35,630 nt of DNA from Bacillota bacterium (GTDB lineage Bacteria > Bacillota > Limnochordia > Darwinibacteriales > DTU012). Under the pieces are notes generated by a model, which did not search any database, was not told the origin of the DNA, and saw only the letters and a program-made list of their open reading frames with translations. The position numbers were made by a program, and so were the translations under genes. The stretch spans positions 1 through 35,630 of the forward strand of contig JAAYNP010000037.1 in NCBI GenBank assembly GCA_012520795.1, given 5' to 3'. Shown piece by piece: positions 29,301-35,630 of the stretch (within the stretch, counting starts at the first letter, position 1; every line of letters begins with the position of its first letter).

Positions 29301-30635
29301 GTGTTGAGTGAGGATACCGCAGCAAAAAAAGGATTCAGCATTGGGTTCTTGTTCCGTACAGAAGACTGGTGGACTGTATGGCTGGGGACACTGCTTCTGG
29401 TTCTGTCAAGCACCGGTGTTATCAAAACAGTACCGCGGCTTAAGGGCTGGACAGACAACATCGCCAGTGCACTGCCTGCAGATTTGATTCCGGGGCTGCT
29501 GGCCTTGGGTGCCTTTCTGGCGGTCATCTGCGGCATAGCCTACGGTGTGGTTAAGCGCAGCAGCACCGAAACTGGGCGGTTTTTGCTTGGTTACCCAGTT
29601 GTGTTCCTGCTGGCGGTGCTGGCCTATGCAATCGGCAATCAGGAGACATTGAAGCAATACGGTTTCAACGACGTAATCTGGGCATTGGCTTTGGGGTTAG
29701 TGATATCAAATGTATTTGGCAAGCCAAAATGGCTGGTGCCGGCCCTGCAGACGGAGCTGTTTATCAAAACCGGATTGGTAGTAATGGGTGCCGAACTCTT
29801 GTTCAACCGGATCCTGGTCCTTGGCGGCTACGGGTTGGGAGTGGCTTGGCTTGGCTGTCCCTTAGTGTTGTTTCTGATGTACCAATATGGGATCCGGATC
29901 CTGAAAATGAAGGATAAATCACTGGTAGCTACGATTGCAGCCTGCACGTCTGTCTGTGGTGTTTCAGCGGCGGTGGCAACCGGGGCAGCCACAAAGGCCA
30001 AAAAAGAGGAAATCAGCATGGCCATTTCCATCTCGTTAATCTTTACGGTAGTGATGATGATTTTAGAACCATTATTCATCAAGTGGCTGGGCTTAAGCGA
30101 TGTGGTTGGCGGAGCCTGGATCGGCGGTACAGTGGACTCCACCGGTGCAGTGGTCGTCGCCGGCAGCATGGTCAGTGAGCTGGCCATGGAAGTTGCAGCG
30201 GTGATCAAAATGCTCCAGAACTTATTGATCGGGGCAGTGGCTTTCGTCTTTGCTCTAGTCTTTGTAGCGCAGGAAGGGGCAGAAGCAGGAGCCGTCCGGC
30301 AGCGCCCCCGTGTCAGCGAAATCTGGCGCAGGATGCCCAAGTTTATCTTCGGTTTCGTGCTGGCATCACTGGTCTTTTCGTTTATCTTAATCCCTTGGCT
30401 TGGCCAGGCAAAAGTCGACGGGATTGTGTCGGTAACCAAAAACCTGAAGAATTGGCTCTTTACCCTGGCGTTTGTTTCGATTGGCCTTGACTCCCGCTTC
30501 AGCGACATGGCCAAAATGTACCAGGGCGGCAAACCGGTTAAGCTCTATATAGTCGGGCAGACCCTGAATATAATTGTGACCTTGATCGCAGCCCTGATCT
30601 TCTTTGGAGGCTATTTCTTCCCGGTGGTCGCCTAA
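29301..30635 (+). CDS. YeiH family putative sulfate/anion exporter
   Basis: A 444-residue polytopic membrane protein of the conserved YeiH family (PF03601), with ~11-12 hydrophobic segments. Family landmarks are ALALGLVISNVFG, FIKTGLVVMGAELLF, CTSVCGVSAAVATGAATKAK, GGAWIGGTVDSTGAVVVAGS, KMLQNLLIGAVAF and LAFVSIGLDSRF. Family members are annotated as putative sulfate exporters on limited evidence, so the substrate is not known. The GTG start lies 7 bases after GGAGG. Gene order gives no functional hint: pheA is divergent and the ger operon convergent. Confidence 0.85.
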   Translation: MLSEDTAAKKGFSIGFLFRTEDWWTVWLGTLLLVLSSTGVIKTVPRLKGWTDNIASALPADLIPGLLALGAFLAVICGIAYGVVKRSSTETGRFLLGYPVVFLLAVLAYAIGNQETLKQYGFNDVIWALALGLVISNVFGKPKWLVPALQTELFIKTGLVVMGAELLFNRILVLGGYGLGVAWLGCPLVLFLMYQYGIRILKMKDKSLVATIAACTSVCGVSAAVATGAATKAKKEEISMAISISLIFTVVMMILEPLFIKWLGLSDVVGGAWIGGTVDSTGAVVVAGSMVSELAMEVAAVIKMLQNLLIGAVAFVFALVFVAQEGAEAGAVRQRPRVSEIWRRMPKFIFGFVLASLVFSFILIPWLGQAKVDGIVSVTKNLKNWLFTLAFVSIGLDSRFSDMAKMYQGGKPVKLYIVGQTLNIIVTLIAALIFFGGYFFPVVA

Positions 30636-30682
30636 CCAGCCGTGGGCAGCGTCCGCCCCGGCACCGTGCAGCATAGTCCGCA

Positions 30683-30731
30683 AGCAAACTTCGGAGAGTG
30701 CCGCAATGGCAGTCTCACGGGTTTGCTTTTC
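30683..30731. terminator. Hairpin terminator between yeiH-like and gerAB
   Basis: AGCAAAC (30683-30689) pairs with GTTTGCT (30721-30727), and inside them GAGAGTGCC pairs with GGCAGTCTC with one mismatch. TTTT follows on the plus strand. The stem overlaps the last bases of the convergent gerAB gene. Confidence 0.65.
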
Positions 30732-31848
30732 TGTTCTTTTTCTGCGGCTGCTGCATTTGCTTTTTCGCCCCTTTGGGATTGCGGATTTTAGACAGGACCA
30801 GCAGCAGAGGCACTAAACCAAAGGTCAGGGCAAGCCAGGCGGCGCCCAGCATGATGTTGAAGGCCAGGACTTCATTTTCGTTTTTGGGGATTAATGCCAA
30901 GAAGTAAACAACCGCTGCCAGTGGAAAGACAAAACCTTTGCCATTGTCAAGTTTAAAGATTTCAGCCACGTGATGGCTTGCAGTAAACAAGCCGATGACA
31001 AGAGTCGAATAAGTGGCTGCAATCCAAACGGTGTAGAAGGAGATATCAATCCGTTCAAGGATTGAATACGGCACCGGGACGTACTTGATCATTTCAAAAA
31101 GGGGGTCGGTCAGTTTGGCGGTCTGGTCAACCGATAAGCTGCCAAACGCCAGAACGACCGCAATCAAAATCATTGTAAGCACTATTGCGACGCCGATCAA
31201 AGCTGGGCGCATCAGCCGTTTGGAGTTTTCGGAATGAGAGCCGAGTACCAACATGATCTCCACACCGGTTAGGGAGAAAATGGAATTATATGCTGCTTTG
31301 GCAATAACGGCCGGTTTCTCTTGAAACAGCGGCAAAAACTCACCGGTATCGAATACAGATACAAACAAGGGTATTACCAGAAAGGGGATAAAGAAAACGT
31401 ACAGGATGATCTGACAAGCCCTGGCGATGGGCTGGAGCCCGTTGCGAGCCAGTATTGATGTGGTAAACAGCATGGAGAGCATGATGGCTTCAATCGGGGT
31501 GCGGGGGAGCAGAAAGAATTTTGTCACTTCAGCAAATGCCCTCATCACAGCGCTGACAAGGAAAATCAAGTACAAGGTAAACAATAAATTGACTGCGAAC
31601 CCGGGAACAGTGCCCAAAAGCATGGGGCTGTAATCCGCTAGGCCATGGTTGGGAAACCGCTGCACAAGCAAGATGATCAGCACAGTCCCGATAATATAGA
31701 CTGCCACAGCGGCCAGATAGGCGATAATCCCATCGGGGCCGGCGCTCCTGGCAAGCAGTGATGGGAGCGTAATTGTTCCGATTCCATAGATCATGTTGAT
31801 AATAATTACGGGGACTTCCTGTGTCAGAAGCTTATCCCTGGCGCTCAT
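30715..31848 (-). CDS. gerAB: Spore germinant receptor permease subunit GerAB/GerKB family
   Basis: A 377-residue, ~10-helix membrane protein of the Spore_permease family (PF03845, APC superfamily). It begins SARDKLLTQEVPVIIINMIYG and has the expected TSILARNGLQPIARACQIIL, FSLTGVEIMLVLG and VPVPYSILERIDISFYTVWI stretches. In spores the B subunit contributes the germinant-binding pocket in the inner membrane. The C-terminus is a basic tail (KKQMQQPQKKNRKANP). The ATG follows GAGGTG and overlaps the gerAC 3' end by 17 bases. A terminator hairpin closes the operon. Confidence 0.9.
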   Translation of the reverse strand: MSARDKLLTQEVPVIIINMIYGIGTITLPSLLARSAGPDGIIAYLAAVAVYIIGTVLIILLVQRFPNHGLADYSPMLLGTVPGFAVNLLFTLYLIFLVSAVMRAFAEVTKFFLLPRTPIEAIMLSMLFTTSILARNGLQPIARACQIILYVFFIPFLVIPLFVSVFDTGEFLPLFQEKPAVIAKAAYNSIFSLTGVEIMLVLGSHSENSKRLMRPALIGVAIVLTMILIAVVLAFGSLSVDQTAKLTDPLFEMIKYVPVPYSILERIDISFYTVWIAATYSTLVIGLFTASHHVAEIFKLDNGKGFVFPLAAVVYFLALIPKNENEVLAFNIMLGAAWLALTFGLVPLLLVLSKIRNPKGAKKQMQQPQKKNRKANP

Positions 31849-32980
31849 AGATGGTCACCTCTTTCAGGATGCCGGTGCGGCGGATGTTGAAATCTGCGGT
31901 TACCTCAAATTTCGCCTGCGGCCATGCCTGCTCTTTCCAATTCTCTTTGTGCTGATTCCAGAATTTAGGGTAATGGCGGTATACCAACCGGTCAAAACCT
32001 ATGGGATCGGTCCTCAAATCCTGCAGTTTTGTAAGCAGATGAAGGATTTCGTCAGTAATTTCCTGGTTGAGCTTGCTTTGGATTCCGGGTATGTCAAATT
32101 CGATTGCACCTCCCGGGCCGCGGTAGAAGGCCTCAATAATCTCCCCTTCCGTCTTTACATTGATTCTGAATGTCAACTGGCCATCCTTAAGCACAGGCTT
32201 AATGTCAGTTGAGGCACTGCGGATCGCGTATGTGTAGAGGATGTCCTCAAGATTGACAGTAAGCACCCCTCCGGAGATGCGGTTGTACAAAAACGCTACG
32301 GCACGGGTTTCGTTTTCCCCCAGCCAGGCAATGAACTTGTAATCCTTGATCAGGGCACCGCCGGCAATGGTCAATTCCGTGTCCGTGCTGCGGACCCGCG
32401 GCAGGACTGTATCTCCATTGCTTTCCAAATCCCTGAGGTTATCTTGAAAATTGCGCTTCACAACCCGGGTGGTGTTTGTAAGTGTATTCAGGATTTGGTT
32501 CAGATGAACTGAGACCAAAGGTTGAAGAGGGTTTTTGATATGCAGGACTTCGTCAGCCTTACCCTGGGCGACAAAAAGTGCCAAGCGCCGGTCAATCCGG
32601 GGATTGCGGTCAAAAAAGTCGATAATCGGCAGAATGCTTTCCCGAGCCAGGTCTTCTCCCAGAATGATACACTGAGTGTGGCCGAAAAACATTTCCCGCC
32701 AAGTGCGGGTTTCAATTCGCGCCGCCATTTGAGCTACCGAGGTCCCTGTGGTGGCGGCAACAAACGCTCTGGTATCAGCAATTCTGTGGGTTTGGGTGGC
32801 AAAACTGGTCAATACCGGGACCTCAATAGTCATGACCAGTTGGTCCTCGGTATCGCTCAAGTCAAAAGCCACACCCATGACAAAAGTACGCCGATCAATA
32901 TCCTTGGCATCCCAGCAACCGGATGCAGCAAAGCTTGCTATAATCAATATCCACAGTGGGTAAAAGCGGCTGCGTCTCAT
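31832..32980 (-). CDS. gerAC: Spore germinant receptor lipoprotein GerAC family
   Basis: A 382-residue Ger(x)C lipoprotein. The signal peptide ends with the lipobox AASGC (Cys22) followed by WDAKDIDRRTFVMGVAFDL, the conserved start of the mature C subunit. TWREMFFGHTQCIILGEDLA and the C-terminal domain with HYPKFWNQHKENW are typical. The C subunit is anchored on the outer face of the spore inner membrane. The ATG overlaps the gerAA stop (ATGA), with GAGGGAAG upstream. Confidence 0.92.
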   Translation of the reverse strand: MRRSRFYPLWILIIASFAASGCWDAKDIDRRTFVMGVAFDLSDTEDQLVMTIEVPVLTSFATQTHRIADTRAFVAATTGTSVAQMAARIETRTWREMFFGHTQCIILGEDLARESILPIIDFFDRNPRIDRRLALFVAQGKADEVLHIKNPLQPLVSVHLNQILNTLTNTTRVVKRNFQDNLRDLESNGDTVLPRVRSTDTELTIAGGALIKDYKFIAWLGENETRAVAFLYNRISGGVLTVNLEDILYTYAIRSASTDIKPVLKDGQLTFRINVKTEGEIIEAFYRGPGGAIEFDIPGIQSKLNQEITDEILHLLTKLQDLRTDPIGFDRLVYRHYPKFWNQHKENWKEQAWPQAKFEVTADFNIRRTGILKEVTIYERQG

Positions 32981-34506
32981 TGTTTTTGCTTCCCTCTGTT
33001 CTGTTTCTTTTTACTCTTCTTGGGCATTCGCTGTCCCTGGCGAGTCGGATCATCGGCCTTGGTATAACTGGGCCTTTTTTTCAGCCCATGCCATGGGCTG
33101 CGGATCACCGAATCATGGAGATCTTTGAGGCTTAAGGGGGCCCACGGCGAGAGGTAACTGACACCAAAACTCGTAAGTGTTGCCATATGGCCTAATACAA
33201 CCAGAATACCCAGAGTCAAGCCGTACAAACCCAAGATACTGGTCACAAACATCAAGAAGAACCGAGAGATCCTCACCCCGAAACTTAGTGTATAGGTAGG
33301 GATGATAAAACCAGCAATGGCCGTCATGGCCACGACAATGACCATGATCGGGCTGACAATGCCGGCGTTGACAGCAGCCTCGCCGATGATCAAGCCTCCC
33401 ACGATGCCGACGGTTTGCCCGATCGGGCCCGGCAGCCGGATTCCCGCCTCCCGCAGCAGTTCCAAAGAGAGTTCCATAATCAAGGCCTCAATAATGGACG
33501 GAAAGGGGAGGCCTTCCCTGGAGGCGGCAATTGACAAGGACAGTTGGGTCGGGATCATCTCCGGGTGGAATGAGATCAAGGCAATGTATAAAGAAGGGGT
33601 TAAAAAAGCGACAAAAGCAGCGATAAAGCGGATCAGGCGCACAAAATTCGCCGCCGGCCAGCGCACATAGTAGTCCTCGGGGGACAGCATTTGCGAATTG
33701 AACGTGGAGGGCACCAACAGGGCAAAAGGCGAATTGTCCACCAAAACTGCCACACGCCCTTCCACCAAGCCCGCAACCACTTCATCGGGGCGCTCTGTAT
33801 CCTGTACCGTATTGAACAGGGACCACCAATCATCCTCAATCATCTGTTCAACATACCCAGAATCGAGAATCACGTCCATATCAATTTTGTTCAAGCGTTT
33901 GCGCACTTCATTGACGAGTTCTTCATTGGCAATATCTTTGACATAAGCAATTACAACATCATTCTGGCCCCGGTTTCCAATTTGGATCCGTTCAAATACC
34001 AGGCTCGGATCGCGTAAGCGGCGCCGGATCAGCATCAAGTTTCGGTTGATGGCTTCTACAAAACTGTCCCGGGGGCCGCGGACCACCCCTTCGGACTCGG
34101 GTGATTGGATCGCACGGTGTTCCCAGTCCTGGACAGCAATGGTCAGGCAAGCGTTGTACCCGTCCACCAACAATGCGGCTTCTCCCATCATGATTGCCAG
34201 GACAACCTTGTTGGCGTCATTGGTTTCACTGTGCTCTGCATTTGTCAGCACCGATTCTTTGAGGAACGAGAGGATGTCAGCATCAATCGGCTGCTGGAAC
34301 CGGCTGGCTTCATGCAAAATAGGATCCAAAACTGCATTGGTAATCAAATGGCTGGATATCAGGCCTTCGAAAAAGATCAAAGCCCCAGCAATCTCCCGGA
34401 TCCCGGGGATACTGATGCTGAACTGGCGGACAACCAGATCGGTACTGTCGTTGAACTGCTGCTTGAAAAACTGAACGTTGTGGTGAATGCGCTTCGACAA
34501 CTTCAA
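32977..34506 (-). CDS. gerAA: Spore germinant receptor subunit GerAA family
   Basis: The A subunit of the germinant receptor (PF03323), which forms the ion-release channel. The N-terminal soluble domain begins HHNVQFFKQQFNDSTDLVVR. VVRGPRDSFVEAINRNLMLI, RVAVLVDNSPFALLVPSTF, SFHPEMIPTQLSLSIAASRE, GLPFPSIIEALIMELSLELL and REAGIRLPGPIGQTVGIVGG are highly conserved. About five membrane segments and a very basic tail (KKSKKKQNRGKQKQ) follow. The start is unclear. The frame is open up to 34659, with an ATG at 34560, but a terminator hairpin spans 34505-34552 and homologous N-termini begin near HHNVQ. A TTG at 34506 sits 7 bases after a GAGG that lies in the hairpin's 3' arm. I use that TTG; the TTG at 34500 or the ATG at 34560 are alternatives. 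Confidence 0.88.
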   Translation of the reverse strand: MKLSKRIHHNVQFFKQQFNDSTDLVVRQFSISIPGIREIAGALIFFEGLISSHLITNAVLDPILHEASRFQQPIDADILSFLKESVLTNAEHSETNDANKVVLAIMMGEAALLVDGYNACLTIAVQDWEHRAIQSPESEGVVRGPRDSFVEAINRNLMLIRRRLRDPSLVFERIQIGNRGQNDVVIAYVKDIANEELVNEVRKRLNKIDMDVILDSGYVEQMIEDDWWSLFNTVQDTERPDEVVAGLVEGRVAVLVDNSPFALLVPSTFNSQMLSPEDYYVRWPAANFVRLIRFIAAFVAFLTPSLYIALISFHPEMIPTQLSLSIAASREGLPFPSIIEALIMELSLELLREAGIRLPGPIGQTVGIVGGLIIGEAAVNAGIVSPIMVIVVAMTAIAGFIIPTYTLSFGVRISRFFLMFVTSILGLYGLTLGILVVLGHMATLTSFGVSYLSPWAPLSLKDLHDSVIRSPWHGLKKRPSYTKADDPTRQGQRMPKKSKKKQNRGKQKQ

Positions 34507-34552
34507 AAAAACCGCCTCGCTCTCTAAACATTGTTTGTCGAAAGCGAGGCGG
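34505..34552 (-). terminator. Terminator/attenuator-like hairpin at the 5' end of gerAA
   Basis: On the minus strand CCGCCTCGCT (34552-34543) pairs perfectly with AGCGAGGCGG (34521-34512) around a 21-base loop, followed by seven Ts. By form it is a strong Rho-independent terminator for the NlpC/P60-like gene upstream. It also contains the only GAGG near the apparent gerAA start, so it could act as an attenuator or sequester the ribosome binding site. Confidence 0.8.
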
Positions 34553-34568
34553 ATATACATGCGGCCTG

Positions 34569-34599
34569 ATACACCCAGGCTGGATATTCCTGGGTGTAT
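34569..34599. repeat. Perfect 11-bp inverted repeat between NlpC/P60-like gene and gerAA
   Basis: ATACACCCAGG (34569-34579) and CCTGGGTGTAT (34589-34599) are perfect inverted copies with a 9-base loop, starting 6 bases after the upstream stop. No T-run follows on either strand, so it is not a standard terminator. It may be an mRNA-stabilising hairpin or a protein-binding site. Confidence 0.7.
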
Positions 34600-34604
34600 T
34601 ATCG

Positions 34605-35246
34605 CTATTCTGCTATCGCATACTGTAAGCGCCCGAAACCGGCGAAGCTGCTGGTCCAAAAATCCCCGTTAACGTAGGCATTGGTCCGGACAACCTTTCC
34701 TCGACTGGCCGATGCAGTAACGAAATGAACCACATCCCCTTTAAACTCTGAAAAGATGGCAACGCCGGAAATATTGCCGAAAGCGTCTTTAAAGAAAATC
34801 AGATCGCCTGGGACAAGTTGGTCCCGGCTGATGAGCACACTGTTGTAGTTGGCGATTAGGCCGCTGGTGGCGTCGGTTACCAGAGCCTTTTGCGTCTCAT
34901 CGAAAAAGAACCGGATGTTTGGTATTACATGACGGTAGGCATTAACAACTACGGCTGATGCATCAGCTCCGATCTCCTCACCGGGGACCTTGCCGTCTGC
35001 AAGAGCTGCCAAATAAGCCTCCACACTTAGTCTGCCGCCGTACAAGTAGGCAACTTCATTGCTGACATACTGCAGTGCATAATCATGGGCTTGATTTGCT
35101 TGCTCGATTGTGATAAGATACTTTTCGGCGGCCAATACCGGCTCGTAATCTGCAGTGAATGCTGCTGTGATGCTTACAAGCACAAGCATTATAAACAACC
35201 GCGCTGCCAGGTTCAAATGGTAAAACTGGCCATAAGTGGTTTTCAT
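34605..35246 (-). CDS. Secreted NlpC/P60-like protein lacking catalytic Cys
   Basis: 213 residues with a signal peptide (hydrophobic LFIMLVLVSITAAF, cleavage near VLAAEK). The body follows the NlpC/P60 layout: AYLYGGR corresponds to the usual PYxWGG; GADASAVVVNAYRHV corresponds to GxDCSGLVxxxY; LVPGDLIFFKD is the conserved PGDLVFF; and SGVAIF stands where HVGIY is expected. The catalytic Cys is Ala and the His position is Ser, so peptidoglycan hydrolysis is unlikely. A binding or structural role is inferred. The ATG is 7 bases behind GGGAGG. It lies just upstream of the ger operon in the same direction but is separated by a terminator. Assignment to the fold rests on pattern only. Confidence 0.68.
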   Translation of the reverse strand: MKTTYGQFYHLNLAARLFIMLVLVSITAAFTADYEPVLAAEKYLITIEQANQAHDYALQYVSNEVAYLYGGRLSVEAYLAALADGKVPGEEIGADASAVVVNAYRHVIPNIRFFFDETQKALVTDATSGLIANYNSVLISRDQLVPGDLIFFKDAFGNISGVAIFSEFKGDVVHFVTASASRGKVVRTNAYVNGDFWTSSFAGFGRLQYAIAE

Positions 35247-35284
35247 AGACTGACCTCCCTGTTATACAAGACTTGTCCATGTCT

Positions 35285-35314
35285 ATTATAATATAATTGA
35301 CGGCAAACAGGCAA
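35285..35314 (-). promoter_or_regulatory. Promoter of the NlpC/P60-like gene
   Basis: On the minus strand a TTGCCT (-35, 35314-35309) and a perfect TATAAT (-10, 35290-35285) are separated by 18 bases. The ATG is 38 bases after the -10 element. It resembles a vegetative sigma-A promoter, not a forespore promoter. Confidence 0.6.
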
Positions 35315-35349
35315 TCGGAGCTGAGAGGTCCAAAATAATCAAATATGGA

Positions 35350-35378
35350 TTGACAATCAGGGTTCTCGCTGGTATAAT
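35350..35378 (+). promoter_or_regulatory. Consensus promoter of the tRNA cluster
   Basis: TTGACA (35350-35355) and TATAAT (35373-35378) match the vegetative consensus exactly with the ideal 17-base spacer, 32 bases before the first tRNA. This is what is expected of a strong stable-RNA promoter. Confidence 0.93.
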
Positions 35379-35410
35379 TTAAGATGCTCTACGGTGGCGA
35401 ATGCAATCGT

Positions 35411-35486
35411 GGGCGAATAGCTCAGCTGGGAGAGCACCTGCCTTACAAGCAGGGGGTCACAGGTTCGAGCCCTGTTTCGCCCACCA
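35411..35486 (+). tRNA. tRNA-Val (TAC)
   Basis: A complete cloverleaf of 76 bases: acceptor GGGCGAA/TTCGCCC, D-arm GCTC/GAGC, anticodon stem CCTGC/GCAGG with loop CTTACAA (anticodon TAC), T-arm ACAGG/CCTGT with TTCGAGC, discriminator A and encoded CCA. Confidence 0.97.
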
Positions 35487-35506
35487 TTCATTTGAGTGGT
35501 ATACAT

Positions 35507-35582
35507 GCGGTAGTAGCTCAATTGGTAGAGCATCGCGTTGCCATCGCGAAGGTTGCGAGTTCGAGTCTCGTCTACCGCTCCA
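35507..35582 (+). tRNA. tRNA-Gly (GCC)
   Basis: A complete cloverleaf of 76 bases: acceptor GCGGTAG/CTACCGC, D-arm GCTC/GAGC, anticodon stem TCGCG/CGCGA with loop TTGCCAT (anticodon GCC), T-arm GCGAG/CTCGT with TTCGAGT, discriminator T and encoded CCA. Confidence 0.97.
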
Positions 35583-35590
35583 GATTTCGA

Positions 35591-35630
35591 GGAGCCGTGG
35601 TGTAGCTGGTTAACACGCCGGCCTGTCACG
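35591..35630 (+). tRNA. tRNA-Asp (GTC), 3' truncated by window edge
   Basis: The 5' half only: acceptor strand GGAGCCG, a D-arm region GTGTAGCTGGTTAACAC, and anticodon stem GCCGG with loop CTGTCAC (anticodon GTC). The 3' half lies beyond the window. Confidence 0.9.

Follow-up and report, generated by a model that had tools for sequence, protein, structure and literature searches.

The window, by which we mean the whole 35,630-nucleotide stretch of DNA that was analyzed, contains a gene for a member of a real, fixed and selected family of NlpC/P60 pseudoenzymes, a family with a clear precedent in RipD of Mycobacterium tuberculosis. By analogy with RipD, the protein would be a periplasmic, non-hydrolyzing protein that binds the stem peptides of peptidoglycan and serves general envelope upkeep, a reading to which we give a probability of roughly 0.55.

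The open reading frame is intact and encodes a single-domain protein, whose sole Pfam match, NLPC_P60, lies narrowly above the cut-off (Table 1). When folded as a single sequence the window protein gave a poor model (pLDDT 52.9, pTM 0.44), which was replaced by an AlphaFold2 model from a 15-row alignment of the window protein and L002 (the two pseudoenzyme members) with 13 NlpC/P60 relatives from IMG/VR (pLDDT 94.0, pTM 0.90). The best structural match of this model was the NlpC/P60 endopeptidase 7cfl_A (Z 15.9, 2.0 Å over 123 residues), and the Foldseek values were moderate (best E 3.5e-6; TMq 0.54-0.56 in the top three). The model and its structural matches show a papain-like NlpC/P60 fold in the window protein. 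An earlier sequence-only reading of this DNA had proposed the NlpC/P60 assignment with structure prediction and a fold search as checks; both were run, and profile and predicted fold agree with it. Judging solely from the N-terminus, where a putative signal peptide can be read, the protein is probably exported.

Table 1. Features of the window around the pseudo-NlpC/P60 gene, and a gene set found downstream of its relatives
Feature	Position	Strand	Basis
Pseudo-NlpC/P60 coding sequence, 213 aa	34605..35246	-	ORF; Pfam NLPC_P60 23.6 bits (cut-off 23); model; fold matches
Putative signal peptide, residues 1-40, hydrophobic stretch ending in VLAA	35127..35246	-	read from sequence
D95-A96-S97, ex-catalytic Cys site (Ala96), Asp and Ser flanks retained	34956..34964	-	alignment
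Gly161, ex-catalytic His site	34764..34766	-	alignment: Gly 39/39; paralogue His 14/14, outgroup His 5/5
Thr177, ex-third catalytic site	34716..34718	-	alignment
Sigma-A-like promoter of pseudo-NlpC gene, TTGCCT-18-TATAAT	35285..35314	-	promoter scan, genus comparison
gerA leader and hairpin (stem 34512-34552), directly upstream of probable gerA TTG start at 34506	34506..34560	-	
gerA-type spore germination protein	32977..34506	-	start codon inferred by comparison with L002
Ger(x)C family spore germination protein	31832..32980	-	TIGR02887 286.7 bits
GerB-type endospore germination permease	30715..31848	-	TIGR00912 183.8 bits
PTS_EIIC_2 / 142-aa protein / Na/Ca exchanger set, downstream of pseudo-NlpC gene	L037 3311-5933; L041 2427-5179; L043 1603-4256		

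The triad of C40 peptidases (Cys, His and a polar third residue) is missing from the window protein, which has Ala96, Gly161 and Thr177 at these sites, and the loss of all three catalytic residues extends to every one of the 39 aligned family members. The Cys column holds Ala in 36 rows and Ser in three, a count that is partly definitional because members were called pseudoenzymes by this very column; in the paralogues it holds Cys (14/14). That assignment does not enter into the His and third columns, the E-values or a tree made without the catalytic columns. The His column is Gly throughout the family (Table 1; the outgroup there consists of canonical domains). The third column is occupied by Val (20), Thr (18) or Ile (1), as against Asn (12), Glu (1) or His (1) in the 14 paralogues and His in all five outgroup domains. 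The Ser found at the Cys position in 3/39 members could be taken to mean that the family retains enzymatic activity through an unusual nucleophile or other chemistry, but with Ala in the remaining 36, Gly in place of His and Thr, Val or Ile as third residue in every row we consider this very unlikely.

The 39 rows represent 36 genomes of the relatives set (own genome included; G071, whose copy is cut off, left out) together with G095, G175 and G261. Outside these counts and the tree are L066 of G071, whose start is cut off and whose dead site is readable, L004 (from the genome of L002), L129 (a fragment) and L130 and L132-L134 (other NlpC-like proteins). Rows with long upstream extensions were trimmed to their last 215-240 residues, the C-terminus of L072 was shortened and L128 was represented by its first 230 residues.

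The sequence-only reading had placed Ala at the catalytic Cys and Ser at the catalytic His. The former was right (Ala96 in GADASAVV), and the loss of the Cys proved to be fixed in the orthologues. The latter was off by one, the His column being Gly161 and Ser160 lying in the variable column before it (19/19 His align on the Gly). The wider description as an inactive and probably secreted wall-hydrolase relative holds up, since we found neither a different fold nor an intact Cys/His pair in the orthologues. Its suggestion that the protein could bind wall peptides is plausible.

Around the dead site, Asp95 and Ser97 are both retained in 39/39 members of the pseudo group, and both are equally fixed in the active paralogues (14/14). 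Fixed in the pseudo group only are Ser128, Phe152 and Gly161 (39/39 each) and Trp197 (38/39), each of them present in 0/14 paralogues; Asn102 occurs in 34/39 pseudo rows, and at that column the paralogues have Trp (14/14). The family has therefore gained constraints besides losing the triad, and the residues fixed in it alone point to a new constrained function. The intact, lipoprotein-like paralogues (L067-L072, L122-L128 and L131) have the same domain, with LY-x-YN and AS...VV stretches in common with the pseudo group, but keep FDCSG and the His, their third residue being mostly Asn (FDCSG, THGGLF and FINASS types). A Cys at the lipobox column was seen in 12/14 of them and also in 7/39 pseudo rows, in a column that is poorly aligned.

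Among the five genomes of the genus, dN/dS of the pseudo-NlpC gene was 0.083-0.169 in the 8/10 congener pairs with finite dS, values that are rough because dS was 0.96-3.09; gerA gave 0.028-0.064 (4/10 usable pairs). The gene is kept under purifying selection, and with 39/39 members affected and congener dN/dS well below 1 the loss of the triad is beyond chance. Lost catalytic residues would also be expected of a decaying pseudogene, but given these ratios, and the finding that no row read as a member has an in-match stop codon, decay is extremely improbable.

The tree was built on an alignment from which the three catalytic columns had been removed, and in it the intact paralogues formed a single group (100/100). 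When distant canonical outgroups were included, the root of the free tree fell inside the pseudo group, and the active group was joined to members of the window's order (92/85). A tree constrained to keep the pseudo group together was 4.4 log units worse and was not rejected (AU p 0.395), the AU test rejecting neither tree. Read literally, the topology of the free tree would require the triad to have been lost several times or to have been regained; we take it as a long-branch effect. A single early loss of the triad in this class is the simplest reading, though not a proven one, and is probably what took place.

To follow the distribution of the family, 80 genomes including the window's own were searched with the window protein (E up to 1e-3). 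Matches were obtained in 39, two of which (G051 and G055) hold only an intact paralogue; the remaining 37 carriers span 11 of the 16 sampled families of the class. Pseudo and intact matches were separated by E-value, the weakest pseudo match having 1.7e-17 and the strongest intact one 2.3e-6, and seven genomes have both forms (G040, G044, G056, G059, G070, G095 and G175). When 398 genomes of the phylum were searched with a profile, 23 gave a match at E 1e-10. Outside the class the pseudo form was seen only in G095, G175 and G261, all of one other family (G172 was left unread). One relative turned up when contigs were scanned with the window protein. Two IMG/VR scans returned 15 and 35 loci, and the 7 and 16 of these that were translated were NlpC/P60 relatives with a Cys, with no pseudo member among them.

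In the window genome (99% complete) no intact paralogue was found, nor any second PF00877 match at E up to 10, in a search that could miss a very divergent one; as a positive control, 12 of 14 control genomes gave a PF00877 match, above the cut-off in nine. All nine genomes of f1, the family of the window genome, had a single PF00877 match (E up to 1e-3), located at the pseudoenzyme's place. For some genomes, among them the window genome and all sampled members of its family, no NlpC/P60 protein other than the dead one was found. The pseudoenzyme family is retained in much of a diderm, spore-forming class that has been little studied, and the intact paralogues of sister genomes are natural active controls. 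We regard the cells as diderm because Omp85 is present in the window genome and in 72/80 genomes overall (70 of the 72 genomes of the class and two of the eight outside it); in one account Limnochordia are described as diderm (PMC7924749). The outer membrane was considered as an explanation for the presence of the protein and rejected: Omp85 also occurs in most genomes without the protein and therefore does not discriminate.

As the sequence-only reading had stated, a germinant receptor operon adjoins the gene: gerA, gerC and gerB follow directly downstream on the same strand. That reading had also suggested a possible role in spore-envelope assembly or germinant sensing. gerA directly adjoins the gene in G000-G004, that is in 5/5 genus genomes with the window's own among them, and is separated from it by two or three genes in G006-G008. 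Within the 6-18 kb searched around the gene (less at contig ends, and too little in G005 to judge), a GerA of the window's kind was near it in 8/37 carriers, all of one family. A protein that assists the germinant receptor or the assembly of the spore envelope would account for this gene order, with the position directly upstream of gerA on the same strand throughout the genus and the nearby gerA in three further genomes of the family. The wider survey makes such a role unlikely. SpoIVA was found in 74/80 genomes and GerA in 76/80, and all six genomes without SpoIVA carry the pseudoenzyme (G009, G012, G014, G016, G054 and G057). Four of them, G009, G012, G014 and G016 (completeness 86%, 98%, 95% and 79%), have neither SpoIVA nor GerA; SASP was absent from G009 and G012, the two of these four that were searched. 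Conversely, the sister family f3 has SpoIVA and GerA in 22/22 genomes and the pseudoenzyme in 0/22. With carriers that lack spore genes and f3 spore genomes that lack the pseudoenzyme, its presence is therefore uncoupled from sporulation in both directions. The four carriers without SpoIVA and GerA belong to the same order and have apparently lost sporulation.

Putative regulatory elements speak against a germination link, and against a transcript shared with the ger genes, as well. The pseudo-NlpC gene has its own promoter-like site, with 10/12 consensus matches; the whole stretch has four such sigma-A-like sites where 1.5 would be expected. All five genus genomes share TTGCCTG without change and, by reading, each has TATAAT downstream of it. 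The stretch that separates the gene from gerA contains a hairpin (-26.7 kcal/mol, z -7.1) that is conserved in the five genus genomes and whose 3' arm holds a GAGG ribosome-site-like stretch, followed by a T-run. By reading and alignment, a similar element precedes gerA in G006 and G007, and in weaker form in G008, despite other preceding genes; the leader hairpin therefore belongs to gerA and not to the pseudo-NlpC gene. In G008 a stem and then a T-run can be read between the preceding gene and gerA. The pseudo-NlpC gene and gerA thus look like separate transcription units, and with linkage seen in one family only, the adjacency of gerABC looks like a coincidence of local gene order. A gene next to a ger operon need not belong to germination.

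RipD (Rv1566c; PDB 4jxb and 4lj1) is the closest known parallel in kind. It likewise has an NlpC/P60 domain with a dead triad and a Cys to Ala change, and 4jxb was a structural match of the window model (Z 13.2). Its triad is given as Ala83-Ser132-Glu144, to be compared with Ala-Gly-Thr in the window protein, and its dead domain is described as able to bind peptidoglycan (both PMC12067865). RipD carries C-terminal pentapeptide repeats, whereas the window protein ends with the domain. The window protein had no match to the NCBIfam model NlpC_inact_RipD at E up to 10. Of 36 family members, 13 matched that model weakly (best E 5.9e-7), 22 matched the active model MepS/Spr and 13 the active model RipB; in NCBIfam terms the family is at least as close to active models as to RipD. 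MepS/Spr, LytE, Clostridioides difficile Acd24020 and other NlpC/P60 endopeptidases have the same fold (best Z as given for the top match above) but are Cys enzymes. Another structural match, MagC of Pseudomonas aeruginosa (PDB 7bk8, Z 12.4), which we take to be the DUF1175 protein, differs in family and context, and no sequence match to it was seen. DUF1175 is described as an inactive family that binds peptidoglycan (PMC10318531). In literature searches that mostly covered journals outside subscription, we found no paper combining NlpC with pseudoenzyme and none combining Limnochordia with NlpC.

What the dead cleft might bind is suggested by RipA. According to PMC6628586, its motif Asp, D382, makes contact with gamma-D-Glu, and S384 is one of the residues touching the muropeptide. 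By motif, D382 and S384 would correspond to Asp95 and Ser97. Since the triad is lost and the gene nevertheless selected, the protein probably binds the wall rather than cutting it, and the retained Asp and Ser, the RipA contacts and the RipD precedent make stem-peptide binding our best guess. Asp95 and Ser97 may instead serve the fold, because they are equally kept in the active paralogues. We propose that in this class of diderm spore-forming Firmicutes an NlpC/P60-fold protein lost Cys, His and third residue alike, probably in a single early event, and that the triad-less family was then retained by selection. The exported domain would most likely reside in the periplasm, where the cleft that once took the substrate, its Asp and Ser retained on either side of the nucleophile position, may bind stem peptides around gamma-D-Glu-diaminopimelate and leave them uncut, in a role in general envelope upkeep rather than in sporulation. 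Here we infer export, peptidoglycan binding, the periplasmic site of action and vegetative expression. If stem peptides are bound, the family would join RipD as an example of a wall hydrolase that has become a protein binding the wall. More tentatively, one might see in it a non-cutting muropeptide-recognition module, that is an ancient, class-wide family rebuilt from an NlpC/P60 hydrolase to act as a periplasmic stem-peptide sensor or tether.

The same dead hydrolase could have become a scaffold or regulator for other proteins, its cleft no longer binding wall peptides and its role being to position or restrain envelope enzymes. Ser128, Phe152 and Trp197, which are fixed in the pseudo group only, and the invariant Gly at the His position would suit such a role, as would the set of neighbors common to part of the order (PTS_EIIC_2 membrane protein, secreted C11, Na/Ca exchanger). 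A PTS_EIIC_2 membrane protein gene follows the pseudo-NlpC gene in six genomes (G006, G007, G008, G012, G014 and G016). After it come a secreted 142-aa protein, for which no Pfam family was found above the cut-off, and a Na/Ca exchanger in G006, G007, G012 and G014; G008 has the 142-aa protein and no exchanger, and in G016 the contig ends after PTS_EIIC_2. However, no one neighbor is common to all lineages compared, and no active NlpC/P60 protein that it could regulate was found in the window genome, so that we regard a scaffold as possible and rather doubtful. Nor does any partner confirm a function, because the neighbors differ between lineages. The 142-aa family also occurs in f3 genomes without the pseudoenzyme, and it was not found in the window genome. 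In another family (L119-L121) the pseudo-NlpC gene precedes, by reading, membrane hydrogenase- or complex-I-like genes.

Several observations concern the non-coding DNA on either side of the gene. Just past the pseudo-NlpC stop codon lies a perfect inverted repeat with 11-bp arms (34569-34599) and no T-run; among the other genus genomes a shorter version was seen in L032 only. An Rfam search of 30600-35630 returned two tRNAs and nothing else, and the leader hairpin was missing from the output of a terminator scan whose loop limit is 8. Allowing up to 8 substitutions, a fuzzy search for the genus leader retrieved the genus genomes and one chance place and left G006-G008 unmatched. A forespore-type gerA promoter was suspected because one pattern, which we take to resemble the forespore-type consensus, is shared by the leaders and has a single occurrence in window and genome. 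The form was absent upstream of the readable SASP genes (15/21 loci, some of them the same gene twice, with starts located by a protein motif), which leaves a forespore type no more than possible. A by-product of the work is the conserved gerA leader hairpin itself. Across eight sequences 88.5% of the stem cells pair, compared with 46-54% in a slid control, and three pairs are changed on both sides, compared with 0-2 when slid; the hairpin may control the translation or transcription of gerA.
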